47,529 bases of DNA from assembly GCA_015494795.1 (NCBI GenBank), contig WGAM01000103.1, positions 1 to 47,529 on the forward strand, given 5' to 3'. Positions 8,029 through 47,529 of the stretch are shown here, in pieces; the stretch's first letter is position 1; each line of letters opens with the position of its first letter. The notes beneath the pieces were generated by a model that saw only the letters and a program-made list of their open reading frames with translations, ran no database searches and had not been told where the DNA came from. Source of the stretch: Campylobacterota bacterium. Its GTDB lineage: Bacteria > Campylobacterota > Campylobacteria > Campylobacterales > Sulfurovaceae. The translations under genes were made by a program, and so were the position numbers.

Positions 8029-9042
8029 TTAAAGTAGTGTTCCTGCTGTTAACTTTCTATTACTTATAATATCTATCTCATAAGGATTAGTAAATATCTC
8101 TCGCTTATATGCTTCAACTGCATATCTTCCTATCATTCCAGCATTATCTGAACAGAACTCAAGTGGAACTGTATGTAGGTTTTTATTAAACTCTCTACAA
8201 AGTCTTCTATATGCTTTTCTTATATACAGATTTGCACTAGCTCCACCAACAATAGCAAAATCTTTTATATCTGAATTTTTAAAAATCTTTTTACTCTTTT
8301 GAATAAGATGAAGTTTTATAGATTTTTGAAAAGATGCAGATATATCAGCTTTATCTCTTCTCTTTATTTTAGATGCTCCTCCAAGCTCTTCAATCTTTAA
8401 TCTTACAGCATTTTTAAGTCCAGATAGAGAGAAAGCTATCTTGTTTGACTCTTTTAGAGGGACAGGAAAATTAAATCTATTCTCATCTCCCTCTTTTGCC
8501 AATTTTTCAACTATTGGCCCACCAGGGTAACCCAAACCCATCATCTTAGCTACTTTATCAAAACTCTCTCCAACACTATCATCTAAACTTGTAGCTAATA
8601 TTTTCATATTATCAAAACTATTTACTTCAATTATTTGAGTATGTCCTCCAGATATTAATAGAACTAATATTGGCATTATCTCTCTCTTCTCAATAAATAG
8701 TGAATAGATATGTCCTTTTAGATGATTGACTGCAATTAGAGGAATATCTTGAACAATAGATATGGTCTTTGCCATAGTAATTCCCTCTAAGAGTGTGACT
8801 CCAAGTCCAGGTTGATTTGTAACAGCTACTGCTTTTAGATTTTTTATATAGGGTTTTGTATCTTCTAATATATTTGGTAAGTCTATAGCATGAAGTCTTG
8901 AGGCTAATTCGGGAACAACTCCCCCATAAGAGGCATGTTTAAGCTCTTGTGAGATTTTTTTATGAAAAAGTAATTTATTTGTTTTAATACTTGTAATTGC
9001 AATTGAGCTATCGTCACAACTAGATTCTATACTTAATATCAT
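8029..9042 (-). CDS. tsaD: tRNA N6-threonylcarbamoyladenosine synthase component TsaD
   Basis: [49 protein letters not shown] motifs. Confidence 0.97.
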
Positions 9043-33639: not shown

Positions 33640-34529
33640 AAAGAGTTATAGTCTTTGGTGGAAGTGGATTTTTAGGCTCTTATGTAGCTGATGAGCTAAC
33701 AAGAAGAGGTTATAGTGTTACTATTGCAGATTTAGCCCCATCTCAATATCTTCAAGATAATCAAATATTTAAATCTATAGATATTTTAAATAGAGATGAT
33801 ATTTTATCTGCTGTTAGAGATGCTGATATTGTATATAACTTTGTAGCAGTTGCTAACTTAGATGATGCAATCAATGACCCGATTAATACCATGAATATTA
33901 ATGTTATGGGAAATTTAAATATATTAGAGGCATGTAGGCATAATAATATAGAGAGATTTATCTATGCAAGTAGTGCTTATGCTCTAAGTAGTGAAGGCTC
34001 TTTTTATGGAATTAGTAAACATAGCTCTGAAAAGCTTACAGAGGAGTATTATAGAAGATATGGATTAAAATATACTATTATTAGATATGGCTCTATATAT
34101 GGAGAGAGAGCAAGTCACAATAACTATATCTATAATCTCTTAGAGAGTGCAATAAAATATGGAAAACTAGAGTTTAAAGGTGATGGTGAGGATTTAAGAG
34201 AGTATGTTCATGCGGCTGATACTGCTAAATTATCTGTTGATATATTAGAAGATAAGAGTTATGAAAATGAGCATATTATATTAACAGGTACAGAGAGATT
34301 AAAACGGATAGAGCTTTTAACCATGATAAATGAGATAATGGGAAATAGATTAGAGATAACTCAAATAGATAACTCCAATATGGGACACTATAAGATTACA
34401 CCATACTCATATCACCCAAGTGTAGCTAAAAAACTTGTAGCAAATCCATATATAGATTTAGGTCAAGGGCTTTTAGAGTGCATTCAAGTAATTGATAAGA
34501 AATTTAAATCTTACCAATCTATCTTATGA
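33636..34529 (+). CDS. NAD-dependent epimerase/dehydratase (extended SDR)
   Basis: VIVFGGSGFLGSYVADEL; YGISKHSSEKL catalytic YxxxK; TTG start overlapping the previous stop (TTGA). Confidence 0.92.
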   Translation: MKRVIVFGGSGFLGSYVADELTRRGYSVTIADLAPSQYLQDNQIFKSIDILNRDDILSAVRDADIVYNFVAVANLDDAINDPINTMNINVMGNLNILEACRHNNIERFIYASSAYALSSEGSFYGISKHSSEKLTEEYYRRYGLKYTIIRYGSIYGERASHNNYIYNLLESAIKYGKLEFKGDGEDLREYVHAADTAKLSVDILEDKSYENEHIILTGTERLKRIELLTMINEIMGNRLEITQIDNSNMGHYKITPYSYHPSVAKKLVANPYIDLGQGLLECIQVIDKKFKSYQSIL

Positions 34530-37500
34530 GCTGAATTTATATTTGGTTTAATATCTAAAAGATTACCTGTCTTTCCAACTCCTGTCCAAGTTGATGAGTT
34601 ATTTTCAGTTCCCATTACAAAGTAGTGATTAACCCCTTTTGGAATATTTGATTTTGGTTTACCTCCATAATATTGTAATTGAGGGTCTGCATATATATCT
34701 ACTCTATACTTTTGAGTTCCATGTGGATTTGTAAATCTTGTCATAATAAGTCCATTTCTACCATTTGTAAATCTAATCGGCATAGTAGGAGAGAAGGTTA
34801 ATATATTAGGAGTTGAGCTATCTGGAATTAGATTATTAACTCCTCCATCAACTGTTGCATTATGGTCTATTGATATATACCAACCATTTTCAACTCGTGG
34901 ACTACTAGCAATAGAGGTATGGTTTAATAGATTTGTATCTTTACAATATTTACTATCTACTCTACCACCACAAAATATCTCTATCTGTAGAGGTGTTCTA
35001 ATTGTATTCCTATTTTTAAAATATATTTGTGGAAATCTAACTTTATCTGGAGAGACTTTAGCAAAATAGAAGTTACGAACTGTATCATTTAAATCTTGTG
35101 AGCCTTTTGGAATATATGGATTGTTCTCATCTAATAGATTAGCTGTTGAATTTGCTTCAGTTGAGTTTGTATCAATTTTTTTAAATGTTATCTGAATAGG
35201 ATTTATTGTCTCTGCTAGATTTTTATCTATATTATATCTTATATCAAGATGAGCTTTACCATTAGTTTTAAATCTATCTTTAGATATATTGATGTTTGGC
35301 AGTAGATTAAATCTACTACTTCTACTAATAGTTACATTAGTTTCACTATTAAATTTAACAACTCTTGTAAAGTTAATATCACTCCCTTTTGTTGTCTTAA
35401 TAGATTTATCTACTCCATTATCAGATAGCGTAGTTACTCCTACATTCAATAGAGTATCTTTAGAAAAACAGCCATCTATAAAATTTGTAGTTATATTTCC
35501 ATCTTGACTCTTAGCAGTAATATCACCCTTAAGAGCAATAGCTACACTATTAAATGTAGAGTTAATCTCACTCATATATATAAAATCACTATGTGAGCTA
35601 TGTGGAATATTATCTATAGTAAAGTTTACATCAAATAGATATGGGAAAAATGAGATATTTATATCTGGATTTGAGACAATATTACAGCCTGATATAATAT
35701 TTCCATCTGATGAGGTGTATGACTTATTAATATCACAATCTCCACTCTTAATATCAACCATACTCCAATTCTCATCTTTTATAGAGAGTCTATATCTTCC
35801 AACATTCTGATTTTCAAAGAGATGAGTTATATTTTTTCCACTAATAAAGCTCTCATTAGAGATTTTATCACTCTTGTCTATACATTGAGATATATTTTTA
35901 TCTAAAAACTCTAACGCTCTAGTAACTAATGAGGTGTTATAATCTATTGATGGATTAATATCTGTTCCATTATAGCTGGAGGCTGTTACAGTTAAATTAT
36001 AATCATATCCTGATGCAAATCTTAGAGGTTTACTGTTATTTGGAGATATATTGACTCGTCTTGTTAGATTATTATCAGATAGGATTAAATGAAAATATTC
36101 TGGTCTAATTGCAAAATCATCTCTTGCATCATCATAATTTATATTTTGCATTGCATTAAAACAGCTCTCTAAATTGGTACTACAGTTTGATTGTACAATA
36201 TTGCCACTTCCATCAACTCCATAAGATACCCTAAATCTAGCTCTCTTGGTAGCTGGTAGTGAGTTTAAATCTGATGGTAGTATAATATCAACTCTACTAC
36301 TTGATATATATCCATATCTACTATATATAGTTCTATTATTATCTTCATCAATAAGCTCTAATTTAATAGTAATATTACTATCTAATTGCTGTTTGCTACT
36401 CATATCTTTTTTATATAGGATTATAGAGTAGTCAAAATCTCTACCTACAATCTGTGTAAACCATGCATTTCTCTCTTTTGAGTTAATTGAATATGAGCCA
36501 CTATTAGTTCTCTCAACATTAAACACTCCTTGTAGTGGTTTAGACTTATCTCCAAAATAGATTTGATAATCCTCTACCTCTCCATCGGTAACAAAACCTG
36601 TAGGGTTCATACTAGGGCTACTAGATACTCTAGCTCTTAGATATGTTTTTTGATTTTTTATTAAATTAGCAGGTAGAAAAATATCTATATTATGCTCTCC
36701 TGCACTTAATTTTTTATTATATATAAGGTCATTAGAGTTGTCAAAATGACCGTTGATATTTTTATCTATCCATATTTTTAAATAAGCCTCTTTAGATAGT
36801 TTTACTTTTAGAGTTGTTGTACTATTTAGTTCAAAATATTCTCCATTTATATCTTTCCCATCTAATAGAGTTAATCCATCTTCATCATCTATTCCATTAT
36901 TATCATCACCTTTAGCATCTATTGTATCAAAATAGTTAATATCATGGTCTATCTTATCACCCAAGTATATGCCATTAGATATATTATGCCACGCTTTTCC
37001 ATAAGATATAGGTGCATCTCCATAGTCTGTAAATATTAGAGTGGCATTTAGGCAGTTTGCACCATCATTATAATCAGCCTTTTGTGAGTTAGATAAAAAT
37101 CTTTTTGTTCCATTATTTAAATTAAACTCAAAAAATCCATGTCCTTTACTATCATTTGCAAAAAATCTACCACTCTTATCTGAAAATGATGAGTCAAACT
37201 CATAACCTGTATGAGGATTACCAATAAATGATACCTCTCCACTATCTACATCTATCTTAGTCAGCTTTCCACCATCAGCAATTCCATATAGATATTTACC
37301 ATTAGGTGAAAAAGAGAAATCCTTAATAGATACAGATTTAGTTAAATTTATCTCTTGAACATCTCTTTTACTATCATCATCATCTAATTTAATCTTAAAT
37401 ATCTTATTATAATCAACTCCAAAACCTGTAACATAGTAGTATCCATTATAACTAGCTCCTGCATAGGCTTGATTTGTTTTAAATATATCAGGTAATTTTG

Positions 37501-39931
37501 ATACTTCTCCTAATCTAATTATCTTACCTGTTCTACTTATCCTAAATAGCTCTTTATAGTATAGTCCATATATATAGTTATCTTCTGTAGAGTAGGTTAA
37601 GGCATTATATAGTCTCCTCTCACCTCTATCATCCATAACTTCAAATTTAAATGGAGATTTTGATGTATCTATCTTATGTAGCCACATTCTACCAGTTACC
37701 TTACTACCTCTTTTTATACTACTAGATAGATACATGTGATTATCACAAGTAAATGGCTCTTCATTATGAACATCATCATTTAATATATAAATCCCTGTAC
37801 TACTTCTTCCAAAAGTGAGATTTTTGGGGTGTCTAAGTGCTAAAATAAATAGTTCATCTGGTTCAATATTTATATCCCCATTAATAGTTACTTTGATTTT
37901 AATAGATTTTTTACCTTTTGGAATATTTAATGTTCCATGAGTTGCCATATAGTCGCTATCTTCTGATGAGCTACTCCCATCTTGTGCCGTTCTATCATAA
38001 GTAAAATAGTCTATAGATGTATTTTTTAATGCAGGTTTATCTAAAACTAATTTAATATCTATAGTATGAGTTGAGCTATTGCCCTCATAGGTTCTATAGT
38101 TAGGATTTTCTATATTTAATTTAGGGTATGAGCCATCATCATTAATAATTACCCCATTTACACTCTGTTTACCTTCTATTTTAAGATTATCTGTCTCATT
38201 ATCTATCTTAAGATAAAAATCTTCATCATTCTCTATTTTAGTATCACCCTTTATCTTAACAGGAATTTTAATAGAGGTTGCACCTTTTGGAATATTAAAT
38301 GTTGTTCTGCTAAGTGGAATATAATCCTCATTAGCCTTAGCAGTATGGTTAGAAGTACGATAATCGAAGTGTGAGTTTTCTAATGCTGGAGCATCTAATT
38401 TTAGAGTAAAATTTAAATCTCTTGTACCACTATTACCCTCTTTAATTGAATAGCTATCTTTAGTAAATGAGAGAGTAGGATATTTTCCATCATCATTTAA
38501 AATAGTAGCAGTTGCTTGATTGTTTTTTCCATAGTTTAATTTATTTAGATTGAAAATTTTAAAATAGAATTTCTCATCATCTTCTATCTTTCTATCTCCA
38601 TTTATTGGAACAGATATTTTAAAAGTGGTAGTACCATCTGGAATGGTCATATCTCCATGAGTATATAGATAATCATTATCTTGGGTTGTAGCAGTTCCAT
38701 TCCAAGTCTCATAGTGAAATGAACTACCATTTACTGATGCTTTATTCAGATTAAATATAAAATCTAAATTTTTTGATGAGCTATTTCCCTCTACTATTGA
38801 GTAATCTGAACTTGATAGTGATATAGTAGGATACTCTCCATCATCATTTAAGATTAGAGCTTGTGAGTGGTCTGTTTTAATATAACCACTTCCAGATAAA
38901 TTCATCTGTAAAAACTCATTTGCTTCTATTATATTATCTCCTATAATATCTACAAATATATCTTTAACTCTATCACCCCTATTAAATGTAATATTTCCAC
39001 TTTTAGAGATGTAATCAATTGATGAGGTTGCACTAGGTGTTGATGAGCCATCTTGAGTCTGATAGTGTATAGTCAGAGGAGTATCTAATGGGTAATCTTT
39101 TGCTAAATATACTTTAAACCTCATCTTATTATGGTTTCCAATATTTCCCTCTTTTGTATCAAAACTATCCATATATACCTTTATAGCATCATCATTTCTA
39201 ATAGTTCCCCATGCTGTATCTCTAGTAATAGTTCCCTCTGAAATAGATGATATTTTAACTTTAAAGTTTTCATTACTCTCTGGAGTTGTATCTCCAATAA
39301 TAGTAATTGGAATATATCCATATTTTTTCCCTTTACTAATTGTAAGAGTACCACTCTTTTGAATATAATCCTCTCCTGCTACTGCACTACCATCTATGGT
39401 TGTATAGTGCATTGTAATATCATTTGGAGCAGTCTGATTTAATTTAACTGTAAATTTTAAATCCCAATTAATATCTCTCTCATACTCATATCTATTATAT
39501 ATTTTTGCCTTTAGTGGTGGTCTATCATCATCATATATTGTTCCAGTTCCTCTATTTCTAGTTACGACATATCCATTTGATGAGTTTGATATATCCATAT
39601 ATAGCTTTTCACTCTTTTCATGTATATTATCATCAACTATTGGTACTTCAATAGTTTTGGTTGTTTGAAATGGTAAAAAAGTAACAGTTCCATTAATTGT
39701 ATTATAATCAATTCCACTCTTAGCTGTACCATCAACTGTTGTATAGTTTACTGATACAGGTAAAAAGTGACTCTGACTTAGTTTAATTGTAAATTTTAGA
39801 GGAGTACCACTCCCCTCATATACTCCACTTGCATCTGTAACTGTAATTTGAATATCTCCTCCATCTGCAAATAGATTTGAGTTAAATATAACTATTAATA
39901 AAATTATTATCTGTTTAAATATAATATTCAT
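34511..39931 (-). CDS. Large secreted protein with six Calx-beta repeats and a GEVED-like domain
   Basis: Signal peptide; six units ending in D-D linkers (e.g. TVDGTAKSGIDYNTINGTVTFLPFQTTKTIEVPIVDDNIHEKSEKLYMDI); DYGDAPISYGKAWH...GDDNNGIDDEDG GEVED-type region. Confidence 0.88.
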   Translation of the reverse strand: MNIIFKQIIILLIVIFNSNLFADGGDIQITVTDASGVYEGSGTPLKFTIKLSQSHFLPVSVNYTTVDGTAKSGIDYNTINGTVTFLPFQTTKTIEVPIVDDNIHEKSEKLYMDISNSSNGYVVTRNRGTGTIYDDDRPPLKAKIYNRYEYERDINWDLKFTVKLNQTAPNDITMHYTTIDGSAVAGEDYIQKSGTLTISKGKKYGYIPITIIGDTTPESNENFKVKISSISEGTITRDTAWGTIRNDDAIKVYMDSFDTKEGNIGNHNKMRFKVYLAKDYPLDTPLTIHYQTQDGSSTPSATSSIDYISKSGNITFNRGDRVKDIFVDIIGDNIIEANEFLQMNLSGSGYIKTDHSQALILNDDGEYPTISLSSSDYSIVEGNSSSKNLDFIFNLNKASVNGSSFHYETWNGTATTQDNDYLYTHGDMTIPDGTTTFKISVPINGDRKIEDDEKFYFKIFNLNKLNYGKNNQATATILNDDGKYPTLSFTKDSYSIKEGNSGTRDLNFTLKLDAPALENSHFDYRTSNHTAKANEDYIPLSRTTFNIPKGATSIKIPVKIKGDTKIENDEDFYLKIDNETDNLKIEGKQSVNGVIINDDGSYPKLNIENPNYRTYEGNSSTHTIDIKLVLDKPALKNTSIDYFTYDRTAQDGSSSSEDSDYMATHGTLNIPKGKKSIKIKVTINGDINIEPDELFILALRHPKNLTFGRSSTGIYILNDDVHNEEPFTCDNHMYLSSSIKRGSKVTGRMWLHKIDTSKSPFKFEVMDDRGERRLYNALTYSTEDNYIYGLYYKELFRISRTGKIIRLGEVSKLPDIFKTNQAYAGASYNGYYYVTGFGVDYNKIFKIKLDDDDSKRDVQEINLTKSVSIKDFSFSPNGKYLYGIADGGKLTKIDVDSGEVSFIGNPHTGYEFDSSFSDKSGRFFANDSKGHGFFEFNLNNGTKRFLSNSQKADYNDGANCLNATLIFTDYGDAPISYGKAWHNISNGIYLGDKIDHDINYFDTIDAKGDDNNGIDDEDGLTLLDGKDINGEYFELNSTTTLKVKLSKEAYLKIWIDKNINGHFDNSNDLIYNKKLSAGEHNIDIFLPANLIKNQKTYLRARVSSSPSMNPTGFVTDGEVEDYQIYFGDKSKPLQGVFNVERTNSGSYSINSKERNAWFTQIVGRDFDYSIILYKKDMSSKQQLDSNITIKLELIDEDNNRTIYSRYGYISSSRVDIILPSDLNSLPATKRARFRVSYGVDGSGNIVQSNCSTNLESCFNAMQNINYDDARDDFAIRPEYFHLILSDNNLTRRVNISPNNSKPLRFASGYDYNLTVTASSYNGTDINPSIDYNTSLVTRALEFLDKNISQCIDKSDKISNESFISGKNITHLFENQNVGRYRLSIKDENWSMVDIKSGDCDINKSYTSSDGNIISGCNIVSNPDINISFFPYLFDVNFTIDNIPHSSHSDFIYMSEINSTFNSVAIALKGDITAKSQDGNITTNFIDGCFSKDTLLNVGVTTLSDNGVDKSIKTTKGSDINFTRVVKFNSETNVTISRSSRFNLLPNINISKDRFKTNGKAHLDIRYNIDKNLAETINPIQITFKKIDTNSTEANSTANLLDENNPYIPKGSQDLNDTVRNFYFAKVSPDKVRFPQIYFKNRNTIRTPLQIEIFCGGRVDSKYCKDTNLLNHTSIASSPRVENGWYISIDHNATVDGGVNNLIPDSSTPNILTFSPTMPIRFTNGRNGLIMTRFTNPHGTQKYRVDIYADPQLQYYGGKPKSNIPKGVNHYFVMGTENNSSTWTGVGKTGNLLDIKPNINSAHKIDW

Positions 39932-44381: not shown

Positions 44382-44660
44382 TTAAAGCCTATTGCTACAA
44401 CTTCTAGTTGCACAACTACCACCATCAATATTAAATATATCTCTATATTTACACTCTCTACACTCAAATGTAACCATTTTTGTACCACTGCACCCACCCC
44501 CTCTCTGGTCAATTATCTCAACTGTTGCTTTATGACACTTTGGGCAGATACCATTTGTAATTGCTAATAGTTTCTCTTTTTTCTCTTTCATAAAATATAT
44601 ATAGCTAACTATTAGTCCAATAATCACAATAAGAAGAAATGCTACTAGATAGAAGTCCAT
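44382..44660 (-). CDS. Small single-TM protein with zinc-ribbon-like CPKC/CREC
   Basis: N-terminal TM, CPKC...CREC pair and extra Cys (GGGCSG, GGSCATRSCSN); 1-nt overlap with msr stop (TAATG). Confidence 0.7.
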   Translation of the reverse strand: MDFYLVAFLLIVIIGLIVSYIYFMKEKKEKLLAITNGICPKCHKATVEIIDQRGGGCSGTKMVTFECRECKYRDIFNIDGGSCATRSCSNRL

Positions 44661-45517
44661 TAAAATCTCTTAATATAGTTATGGCAGTATGGTTTTGAAC
44701 CTCTTAACTTATAGTAGTTTTGATGTTCATGCTCTGCAATATAAAACTTATGTTTTTTTGCATCAATAAGTTTTGTAACAATACTCATTCCACTCTCCTC
44801 TAATTTATCAATAAGTTCAATAATAGTCTCTCTCTCCTCTATATTATTATAGAATATTGCTGATATATATTGAGAGCCTATATCTGGTCCTTGTCCATCT
44901 GCCTGTTCTGGATTATGTATCTCAAAAAATAGTTTTACTAAATCTCTATATAATATAATATCTGGATTATATGTAACTTCAACAGTTTCAATATGTCCTG
45001 TATCTCTATAGCATACATCTTGATATGTTGGATTTTCTAAGTCTCCACCCATATAACCAGAGTTTGCACTTAATACTCCATTCTGTTTGCTAAACCAATA
45101 CTCAACACCCCAAAAACATCCACCTGCAAAATATGCTTTTTTATAACTACTATTTTTGCTAAATGGTTTAAAGTTTAATGATATAGAGTTAACACAGTGT
45201 CTAGTATTTTTAGGTGTAAACTGCTCACCTCTAAAAACATGTCCTAAGTGTCCACCACAATTTGCACAGACAATCTCTACTCTAACACCATCAATATCAG
45301 CTATCTCTTCTACTGCCCCTTTGATAGAGTCATCAAAACTTGGCCAACCTGAACCTGAATTAAATTTGTCATTTGAGTTAAATAGAGGAGAGTTACACTT
45401 TTTACATATATATATACCATCTTCATAGAAGCTATTAAACTTACCACTAAATGGCATCTCTGTTCCCTTCTCCTCTATAACTCTCTTCTCTTCACTATTA
45501 AGCTTATTATATTTCAT
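44660..45517 (-). CDS. msrBA: Bifunctional peptide methionine sulfoxide reductase MsrB-MsrA
   Basis: MsrB: CKKCNSPLF, GSGWPSF, CANCGGHLGHVF, RHCVNSISLNF; MsrA: AYFAGGCFWGVEYWF, YCHNYI. Confidence 0.95.
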   Translation of the reverse strand: MKYNKLNSEEKRVIEEKGTEMPFSGKFNSFYEDGIYICKKCNSPLFNSNDKFNSGSGWPSFDDSIKGAVEEIADIDGVRVEIVCANCGGHLGHVFRGEQFTPKNTRHCVNSISLNFKPFSKNSSYKKAYFAGGCFWGVEYWFSKQNGVLSANSGYMGGDLENPTYQDVCYRDTGHIETVEVTYNPDIILYRDLVKLFFEIHNPEQADGQGPDIGSQYISAIFYNNIEERETIIELIDKLEESGMSIVTKLIDAKKHKFYIAEHEHQNYYKLRGSKPYCHNYIKRF

Positions 45518-45526
45518 TATTTAGTC

Positions 45527-46891
45527 CTATCTTTTTTGATAGATATAATCTAACATATCTCTATTATCTCTATCTTTTAAATCTCTCTTTTTAAAGTTAA
45601 AACTCTTATATAGAGCTATTGCTACTCTATTTTTAGAAAATACTTCTGCTATTAATCTCTCAATTTTTAATCTATTAAAACCATAATCTATAATTAATTT
45701 CATTAGAATTTTACCAAATCCTCTACCTCTACTATCGGGTCTAACATATAAGCCAAAATCAGCCCTCTTATTAATATAATCTATATTTGTAAAATCAATA
45801 ACTCCAATATCTTCACCTCTATATCTCACTAAAAAATATACTCTATCTCTCAATACTCTTAGTGAATTAATATAATTTAGGTGTTCATCTAAATAGATTA
45901 TCTCTCTATTTAACATCCATTTTCTAATATCTTTATGGTTTCTCCACTCTAAAACTTTCTCTTTTTCACTAAGAGATAAATCTGTAAAGTTAATAAGAGT
46001 AGTATCTAATCTAATTAACATTAAATCTATATACTCTCTAAGTAAATCTCTATTAAATCTATCTAAAATTAACTCTCTCTTCTCTTTTAGATAATTAAAC
46101 ATATCATTTTGATTTTCTGCTGTCTTTATAGCAATAAATGGAATATTCATATAGTCTATCTCATTTAATATAACACTAGGAGTAACTATTGCAAAATCAC
46201 TCTGTCTCATTAGTTTTGCAATTCTGTTTGAGTCTATATGTAGAGTAATATTATCTCTATTTAATATATATCTTTTTAATCTATCTAAATTTATATTTGC
46301 ACTTGAAGTTACTACATGTATATTGAGATTTTTAAATTTACCTGCTACACTCAATATTAGAGGTAAAATTTGAGTATGGTCACTTCCTCCCATTGATAGA
46401 AATAGAGTCTTTTTATTTTTCTCTCTTTTAAACTCATCTCTAACCAATCTATACTCTCTTCCACATCTAACTTCACAACTTTTAGGTAGTAAATTTTTAT
46501 ATCTGCTACTATTTGCACTAATATTATGATTTAATAAAATATCGCAATAGTGCTTTTGATATCTATCATCTAATACCATAATAGTCAATTTAGGATTTAG
46601 AGTTTTAAGTTTTTTCTCAAAATCATAATCTATATCATAGTTATCTATAACTATCATATCTATATCTAATCTCTTAATAACTCTATCAAGCTCATCTATA
46701 CTATTAGATTTTAAAATCTCAACTCTATATCCAGCCTCTTCTATCTTATAGTTTATATTCCCATCTAACTCTTCAGTTGCAAATATAACCTCTCTATACT
46801 CTTTTGCTAAGACTAAATCTCGCATAATATGCCCTGTGCCAATAGTTGAAGATGAATTGGCTCTAAATAAAACTTTTATATCTTTAATCAT
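45527..46891 (-). CDS. Fused PseG (UDP-sugar hydrolase) - PseH (GNAT acetyltransferase), pseudaminic acid pathway
   Basis: N-terminal half: FRANSSSTIGTGHIMRDLVLA, SMGGSDHTQILPLIL (PseG); C-terminal half: LSEKEKVLEWRNHKDIRKWMLNREII...RGRGFGKILMKLIIDYGFNRLKIERLIAEVFSKNRVAIALYKSFNF (PseH GNAT). Confidence 0.88.
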   Translation of the reverse strand: MIKDIKVLFRANSSSTIGTGHIMRDLVLAKEYREVIFATEELDGNINYKIEEAGYRVEILKSNSIDELDRVIKRLDIDMIVIDNYDIDYDFEKKLKTLNPKLTIMVLDDRYQKHYCDILLNHNISANSSRYKNLLPKSCEVRCGREYRLVRDEFKREKNKKTLFLSMGGSDHTQILPLILSVAGKFKNLNIHVVTSSANINLDRLKRYILNRDNITLHIDSNRIAKLMRQSDFAIVTPSVILNEIDYMNIPFIAIKTAENQNDMFNYLKEKRELILDRFNRDLLREYIDLMLIRLDTTLINFTDLSLSEKEKVLEWRNHKDIRKWMLNREIIYLDEHLNYINSLRVLRDRVYFLVRYRGEDIGVIDFTNIDYINKRADFGLYVRPDSRGRGFGKILMKLIIDYGFNRLKIERLIAEVFSKNRVAIALYKSFNFKKRDLKDRDNRDMLDYIYQKR

Positions 46892-46894
46892 AAT

Positions 46895-47338
46895 TTAATC
46901 TTTTAACTGCTTTAAGTTTTTTACTATAAAATCTAAATATCTATTATCATCAATATATGAGTCTATAAGCTCATTTTTTAAGTCAGGTTCAATATTTTTA
47001 ATTAATTTAATAACTATTTTTTCAAAATTATTTATATTATTATGGATAATATTCCAAATCTCATCTGCATCTATACCAAAATATTCATGTGTTATAACAT
47101 TTCTAAAATCTACAATTTTTCTATAATAATTATCTAATAACTTAGCTTTTAATAGATATTTACTAGCCTCTCCAATAATTTGAAACTCTCTAATTACACT
47201 ATCCCAACTTATAAAGTCATAAAGTAACTCTTGAGCATTATTAAATTGTAAAGATACATATTTAATTTTATTTATTGCTATATAAATATCAAAAATAAAT
47301 AGTTCTATATTTCTACCAACTTTTGATATATCATACAT
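46895..47338 (-). CDS. HEPN domain toxin (DUF86/HepT-like)
   Basis: RX4HXY motif RNVITHEY; helical 147-aa protein next to an MNT nucleotidyltransferase. Confidence 0.85.
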   Translation of the reverse strand: MYDISKVGRNIELFIFDIYIAINKIKYVSLQFNNAQELLYDFISWDSVIREFQIIGEASKYLLKAKLLDNYYRKIVDFRNVITHEYFGIDADEIWNIIHNNINNFEKIVIKLIKNIEPDLKNELIDSYIDDNRYLDFIVKNLKQLKD

Positions 47339-47504
47339 AAATAAAATCTTTTTTAATTCTATTTTTTATAAAACTTTTCATACTATCAAAATAACCCATA
47401 TCAATATTTTTATTTAATCTTTTTTCTAAAAAATTTATAGCTTCCATTCTTATAAAGAAATTTTTATCTTTTATTTTTAATATAGCAATATCAATATCAC
47501 TATC
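47331..47504 (-). CDS. MNT-family minimal nucleotidyltransferase antitoxin, N-terminus lost at contig end
   Basis: DSDIDIAILKIKDKNFF...: the SDIDI acid motif of MNT; overlaps HEPN by 8 nt. True sequence ends at 47504; the MYKRQ start is adapter-derived. Confidence 0.82.
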   Translation of the reverse strand, partial: DSDIDIAILKIKDKNFFIRMEAINFLEKRLNKNIDMGYFDSMKSFIKNRIKKDFIYV

Positions 47505-47529
47505 CTGTCTCTTATACACATCTCCGAGC
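47505..47529 (+). other. Nextera transposase adapter (sequencing artefact)
   Basis: CTGTCTCTTATACACATCTCCGAGC is the Nextera mosaic end plus start of the read-2 adapter. Confidence 0.98.

Follow-up and report, generated by a model that had tools for sequence, protein, structure and literature searches.

The described toxin-antitoxin system closest to the gene pair treated here is SO_3165/SO_3166 of Shewanella oneidensis, in which MntA uses a GSX10DXD motif to move AMPs onto the tyrosine of the RX4HXY motif of HepT, silencing its RNase activity (PMC7641770). The window analysed here (47,529 nucleotides, the entire contig C103 of the 1.92-Mb, 154-contig assembly G000) shares with this system a putative PF01909-type antitoxin, with GSX10DXD across the proposed join to contig C130, and a PF01934 toxin with RX4HXY, encoded by adjacent and overlapping genes. 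However, sequence identity is low, and the present pair, known from its sequence, is located in a pseudaminic acid operon. Compared to the pseB-pseC-pseF-pseG-pseH cluster, all five functions are present and arranged as in the sister genome G016, but pseG and pseH are fused and mntA-hepT lies between pseF and pseGH. A third comparison concerns other draft contigs that end in Nextera adapter, from which C103 differs in nothing; here the adapter happens to interrupt a catalytic motif and to supply a GTG in frame. As untrimmed adapter at contig ends is a common artefact and the gene family is already known, the operon placement is the main point of interest.

Adapter sequence at the contig end and the false start it creates

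The last 25 nt of the window, CTGTCTCTTATACACATCTCCGAGC (bases 47505-47529), are identical to the 25 nt of the Nextera read-2 adapter that lie next to the insert, and the earlier note was right to read them as a Tn5 mosaic end plus adapter. The features at this end of the contig are:

47505..47523, + strand: Tn5 mosaic end, 19 nt, a library artefact (exact match)
47524..47529, + strand: CCGAGC, the first 6 nt past the mosaic end, Nextera read-2 (i7-side) adapter (sequence)
47331..47519, - strand: mechanical ORF beginning MYKRQ, its first 5 residues adapter, an artefact (ORF translation)
47331..47504, - strand: genuine 3' part of mntA, the last 57 codons and stop, from D-S-D-I-D-I (family and profile matches)
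46895..47338, - strand: hepT, HEPN ribonuclease toxin, 147 aa, RX4HXY as RNVITHEY, overlapping mntA by 8 nt (PF01934, E 3.5e-15)

In the Nextera read-2 adapter the mosaic end continues with CCGAGC, as it does here. An exact match of 25 bases that runs to the final base of a contig cannot reasonably be put down to chance. Within the window the mosaic end has one exact match and no other at up to three mismatches. A search of the contig ends for the adapter had been proposed earlier; across the full length of all 154 contigs, the 3' end of C103 is the sole 14-19-mer match, while an 11-mer search of the assembly gave one additional copy (C122:9091). The adapter begins where the insert stops and faces outward, which is the pattern left by adapter read-through. 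Reads of a Nextera (Tn5-tagmented) library would have run past the end of the insert into the read-2 adapter, which was left untrimmed, the assembler adding 25 nt of it to the end of C103.

A scan of public draft genomes with the 25-mer gave at least 127 matches in at least 119 stretches, a non-random sample in which many contigs belong to one series of metagenome bins (SRR39331xx-SRR39333xx). Among the matches listed, the distance to the contig end is 0-165 nt in 126 of 127, all of which point outward. The bases flanking the adapter in the listed contigs (G1, Y4, W5, R6, C9) fit the known target preference of Tn5. The sole deep-internal match among the 127 listed, in JAOAJQ010000047.1 of an archaeal bin (L054:3952-3976), is likely a misjoin. 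In the window's own family the mosaic end is present in 7 of 175 genomes, and all 16 reverse-strand copies begin at contig bases 1-8. The 34-nt form of the adapter occurs in 41 phage records and nine plasmids, and the full 34 nt are found internally, far from the ends, in phage records (NC_054919.1:76726-76759, MK327937.1:110018, MK327945.1:123962, LR535910.1:240196) and also in plasmids (e.g. NZ_CP040712.1:163066), some falling within annotated genes (baseplate hub/tail lysozyme). This suggests misjoined or disrupted assemblies.

One frame of the reverse complement of the adapter, AGATGTGTATAAGAGACAG, contains GTG-TAT-AAG-AGA-CAG and is translated as MYKRQ; that the ORF start is an artefact of this reading, as had been claimed, is borne out. 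The frame remains open up to the contig end, where it reads LGDVYKRQ. At the 126 other adapter ends among the matches listed, 26 ORFs of at least 60 aa start at an adapter ATG (MCIRD...) and 25 at an adapter GTG (MYKRQ). With 51 such frames, false N-termini can enter protein databases, and the warning against such starts holds generally, beyond C103. Within the literature covered, a search for MCIRD, VYKRQ or MYKRQ as a known artefact found no relevant paper, and searches on adapter contamination and the mosaic-end sequence returned nothing directly pertinent.

The two halves of mntA

The genomic part of the cut protein comprises 57 aa (DSDIDIAILKIKDKN...FIYV). Its relatives are small proteins of about 95-104 aa, present in 22 of the 100 genomes searched (its own included), and in nearly all those examined the following gene overlaps by 8 nt, stop codon included, as hepT does here. 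The full-length relatives are PF01909/PF18765 nucleotidyltransferases scoring well over the Pfam cut-off, and a search of the PDB with a close relative matched the Mnt antidote alone (5yep/6m6v/7bxo). The 57-aa part itself reaches 17 bits, under the Pfam cut-off as is expected at such a length, and matches PADLOC PDC-S09 at E 4e-9. HepT scores 56.2 bits against PF01934 (cut-off 23.5) and occurs once in the genome; searches with it found no sequence match among solved structures and no match among plasmids. Among viral contigs none was confirmed. From this sequence evidence the cut frame is identified as mntA, a predicted ordinary antitoxin of about 96 codons in an MntA-HepT (HEPN-MNT, type VII) pair. 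If the pair works as in Shewanella, MntA would silence the RNase activity of HepT by adenylylating the tyrosine of RX4HXY, and it is on this analogy that we infer a type VII mechanism of adenylylation and neutralisation.

The residues D-S-D-I-D-I with which the genomic part begins are the second half of GSX10DXD, the GS half being missing from the window because the contig stops between GS and DXD. A tblastn search of the own genome, using a relative's N-terminal half as query, identified C130:8553-8645, 13 nt before the end of that contig at 8658:

C130 8544..8658, contig 3' end: start of mntA, the first 38 codons (tblastn, read-through)

The terminal translation of C130 is MNSSIINKLKELKPILREKYGIEEFAIFGSVAKGIDKK plus one G, ending ...GSVAKGIDKK+G. 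When this G is shared as the first base of the window's GAT, the frame is kept and GS-VAKGIDKKDS-DID is read, that is, GSX10DXD; the motif is complete only across this one-base overlap, with GS from C130 and DID from the window, and without the overlap the frame breaks at the join. Of 29 relatives, 28 share the X10 spacing, and in G024 both halves are spaced identically to the C130/C103 join. Identity to G024 is 81% in the N-terminal and 61% in the C-terminal half, an uneven split which a more conserved active-site half can explain. Since one shared base is below the usual overlap of a de Bruijn assembler, trimming of C130 must be assumed. With a single HepT in the genome, no alternative partner is evident for either the N-terminal half on C130 or the C-terminal half in the window. 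Two further matches were rejected as the missing half, both being contig-internal and weaker: C81:5612, a nucleotidyltransferase of its own with an open frame of 110 aa, and C108:4509.

The contig break lies inside mntA, between the GS and DXD of the catalytic motif. It is the assembly that interrupts the gene, and a cut within the organism is not shown. The earlier statement that the protein is truncated and its N-terminus unknown stands as regards the cut at the contig end, but not as regards the N-terminus, for which 38 codons are found at the end of C130; the frame, the motif spacing, the length conserved among relatives and the arrangement of the genes in the sister species all support this. 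Nor had the gene been recognised in that note as mntA of an MntA-HepT pair.

Gene order across the proposed join and the alternatives to it

On C130 mntA is preceded by metK, pseB, pseC and pseF, the last overlapping mntA by ATGA. In the window, hepT is followed by:

45527..46891, - strand: pseGH fusion (PseG hydrolase and PseH acetyltransferase), 3 nt after the hepT stop (TIGR03590 and TIGR03585, above cut-off)
44660..45517, - strand: msrBA fusion, the next cluster gene, in the order of the sister species (NF004042)

Elsewhere in the window, a 1806-aa ORF (34511-39931, - strand) contains five stretches that match a sodium/calcium exchanger model far under the cut-off; these are probably Calx-beta-type repeats, and the protein is perhaps a repeat adhesin.

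The sister genome G016 carries metK-pseB-pseC-pseF-pseGH-msrBA on a single contig that lacks mntA-hepT. DNA identity to G016 amounts to 91% as far as C130:8514 and to 87% in the window below position 46900, both contig ends being spanned. In G016 pseF overlaps pseGH by 14 nt at an empty site (L174:4679-4709), and PseF ends differently in the two genomes, over its last ~10 residues. The fact that pseF adjoins pseGH on one contig is independent evidence that C130 and C103 are neighbours, and the same order without the pair places mntA-hepT at the pseF-pseGH boundary. The true order would be metK-pseB-pseC-pseF-[mntA-hepT]-pseGH-msrBA.

One alternative accepts the adapter but not C130 as neighbour, mntA then being 5'-truncated or continuing in an unassembled gap. 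The overlap of just one base, across which we infer the physical junction, speaks in its favour; yet the frame and exact X10 spacing across the join, the single hepT, the ATGA overlap that couples mntA to pseF on C130 and the unbroken succession of pseF and pseGH in G016 render it highly unlikely. A chimera of bin or assembly, in which hepT and the 3' part of mntA at the end of C103 derive from another organism, would be in line with the low GC of the pair (19%, where the pse genes on either side have 26-32%) and with its absence from G016. However, hepT is continuous in the assembly with pseGH-msrBA, which has 87% DNA identity to G016, and on the independent contig C130 the start of mntA overlaps the end of the matching pseF, so that we consider such a chimera exceedingly improbable.

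A natural origin of the sequence, as the end of an IS50/Tn5-like transposon in the genome, was rejected, its probability being negligible. The mosaic end is known to be similar to the outside and inside ends of Tn5, but it is a synthetic hybrid, the Nextera-specific CCGAGC comes next, the last 3 kb of the window are without a transposase, the 14-19-mer search found no second copy in the genome, and the 34-nt adapter is absent from all 5,426 complete E. coli genomes searched. An untrimmed adapter on C103, a cut mntA and C130 as the neighbour carrying its start together form, with little doubt, the correct explanation.

Setting of the pair in the pseudaminic acid operon

The GC content is 19% in mntA-hepT, 32% in pseC-pseF and 26% in pseGH. 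The low value is as expected of a recent arrival, and by its composition and context mntA-hepT looks like a recent insertion. In G008 an acyltransferase-like ORF, partly N-masked and named by eye, is situated between pseF and pseG (L175:3388-4589), and the boundary may therefore accept extra genes. PseG and PseH are one fused protein here and in G016, and separate ORFs in G008. Among 29 other HepT loci, compared with flanks of about 1.5 kb, none has a pseF/pseGH context; two lie near distant PseB-/PseC-like genes (25-31% identity). Among the eight papers listed on HEPN-MNT, no mention of pseudaminic acid was found.

Once the adapter is recognised, two contigs of the assembly can be put in order and the antitoxin is recovered; left unrecognised, it would be annotated as a truncated anomaly, and the toxin next to it would seem unpaired. 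The pair (C130:8544-8658 with window positions 46892-47504) shows the ATGA overlap with pseF, the 8-nt overlap of mntA with hepT and the 3-nt gap before pseGH. It is conceivable, albeit doubtful, that mntA-hepT entered exactly at the boundary of pseF and pseGH, with translational coupling on both sides, the supply of antitoxin being tied to expression of the surface-glycan operon. If this were so, loss of the operon would carry a cost.
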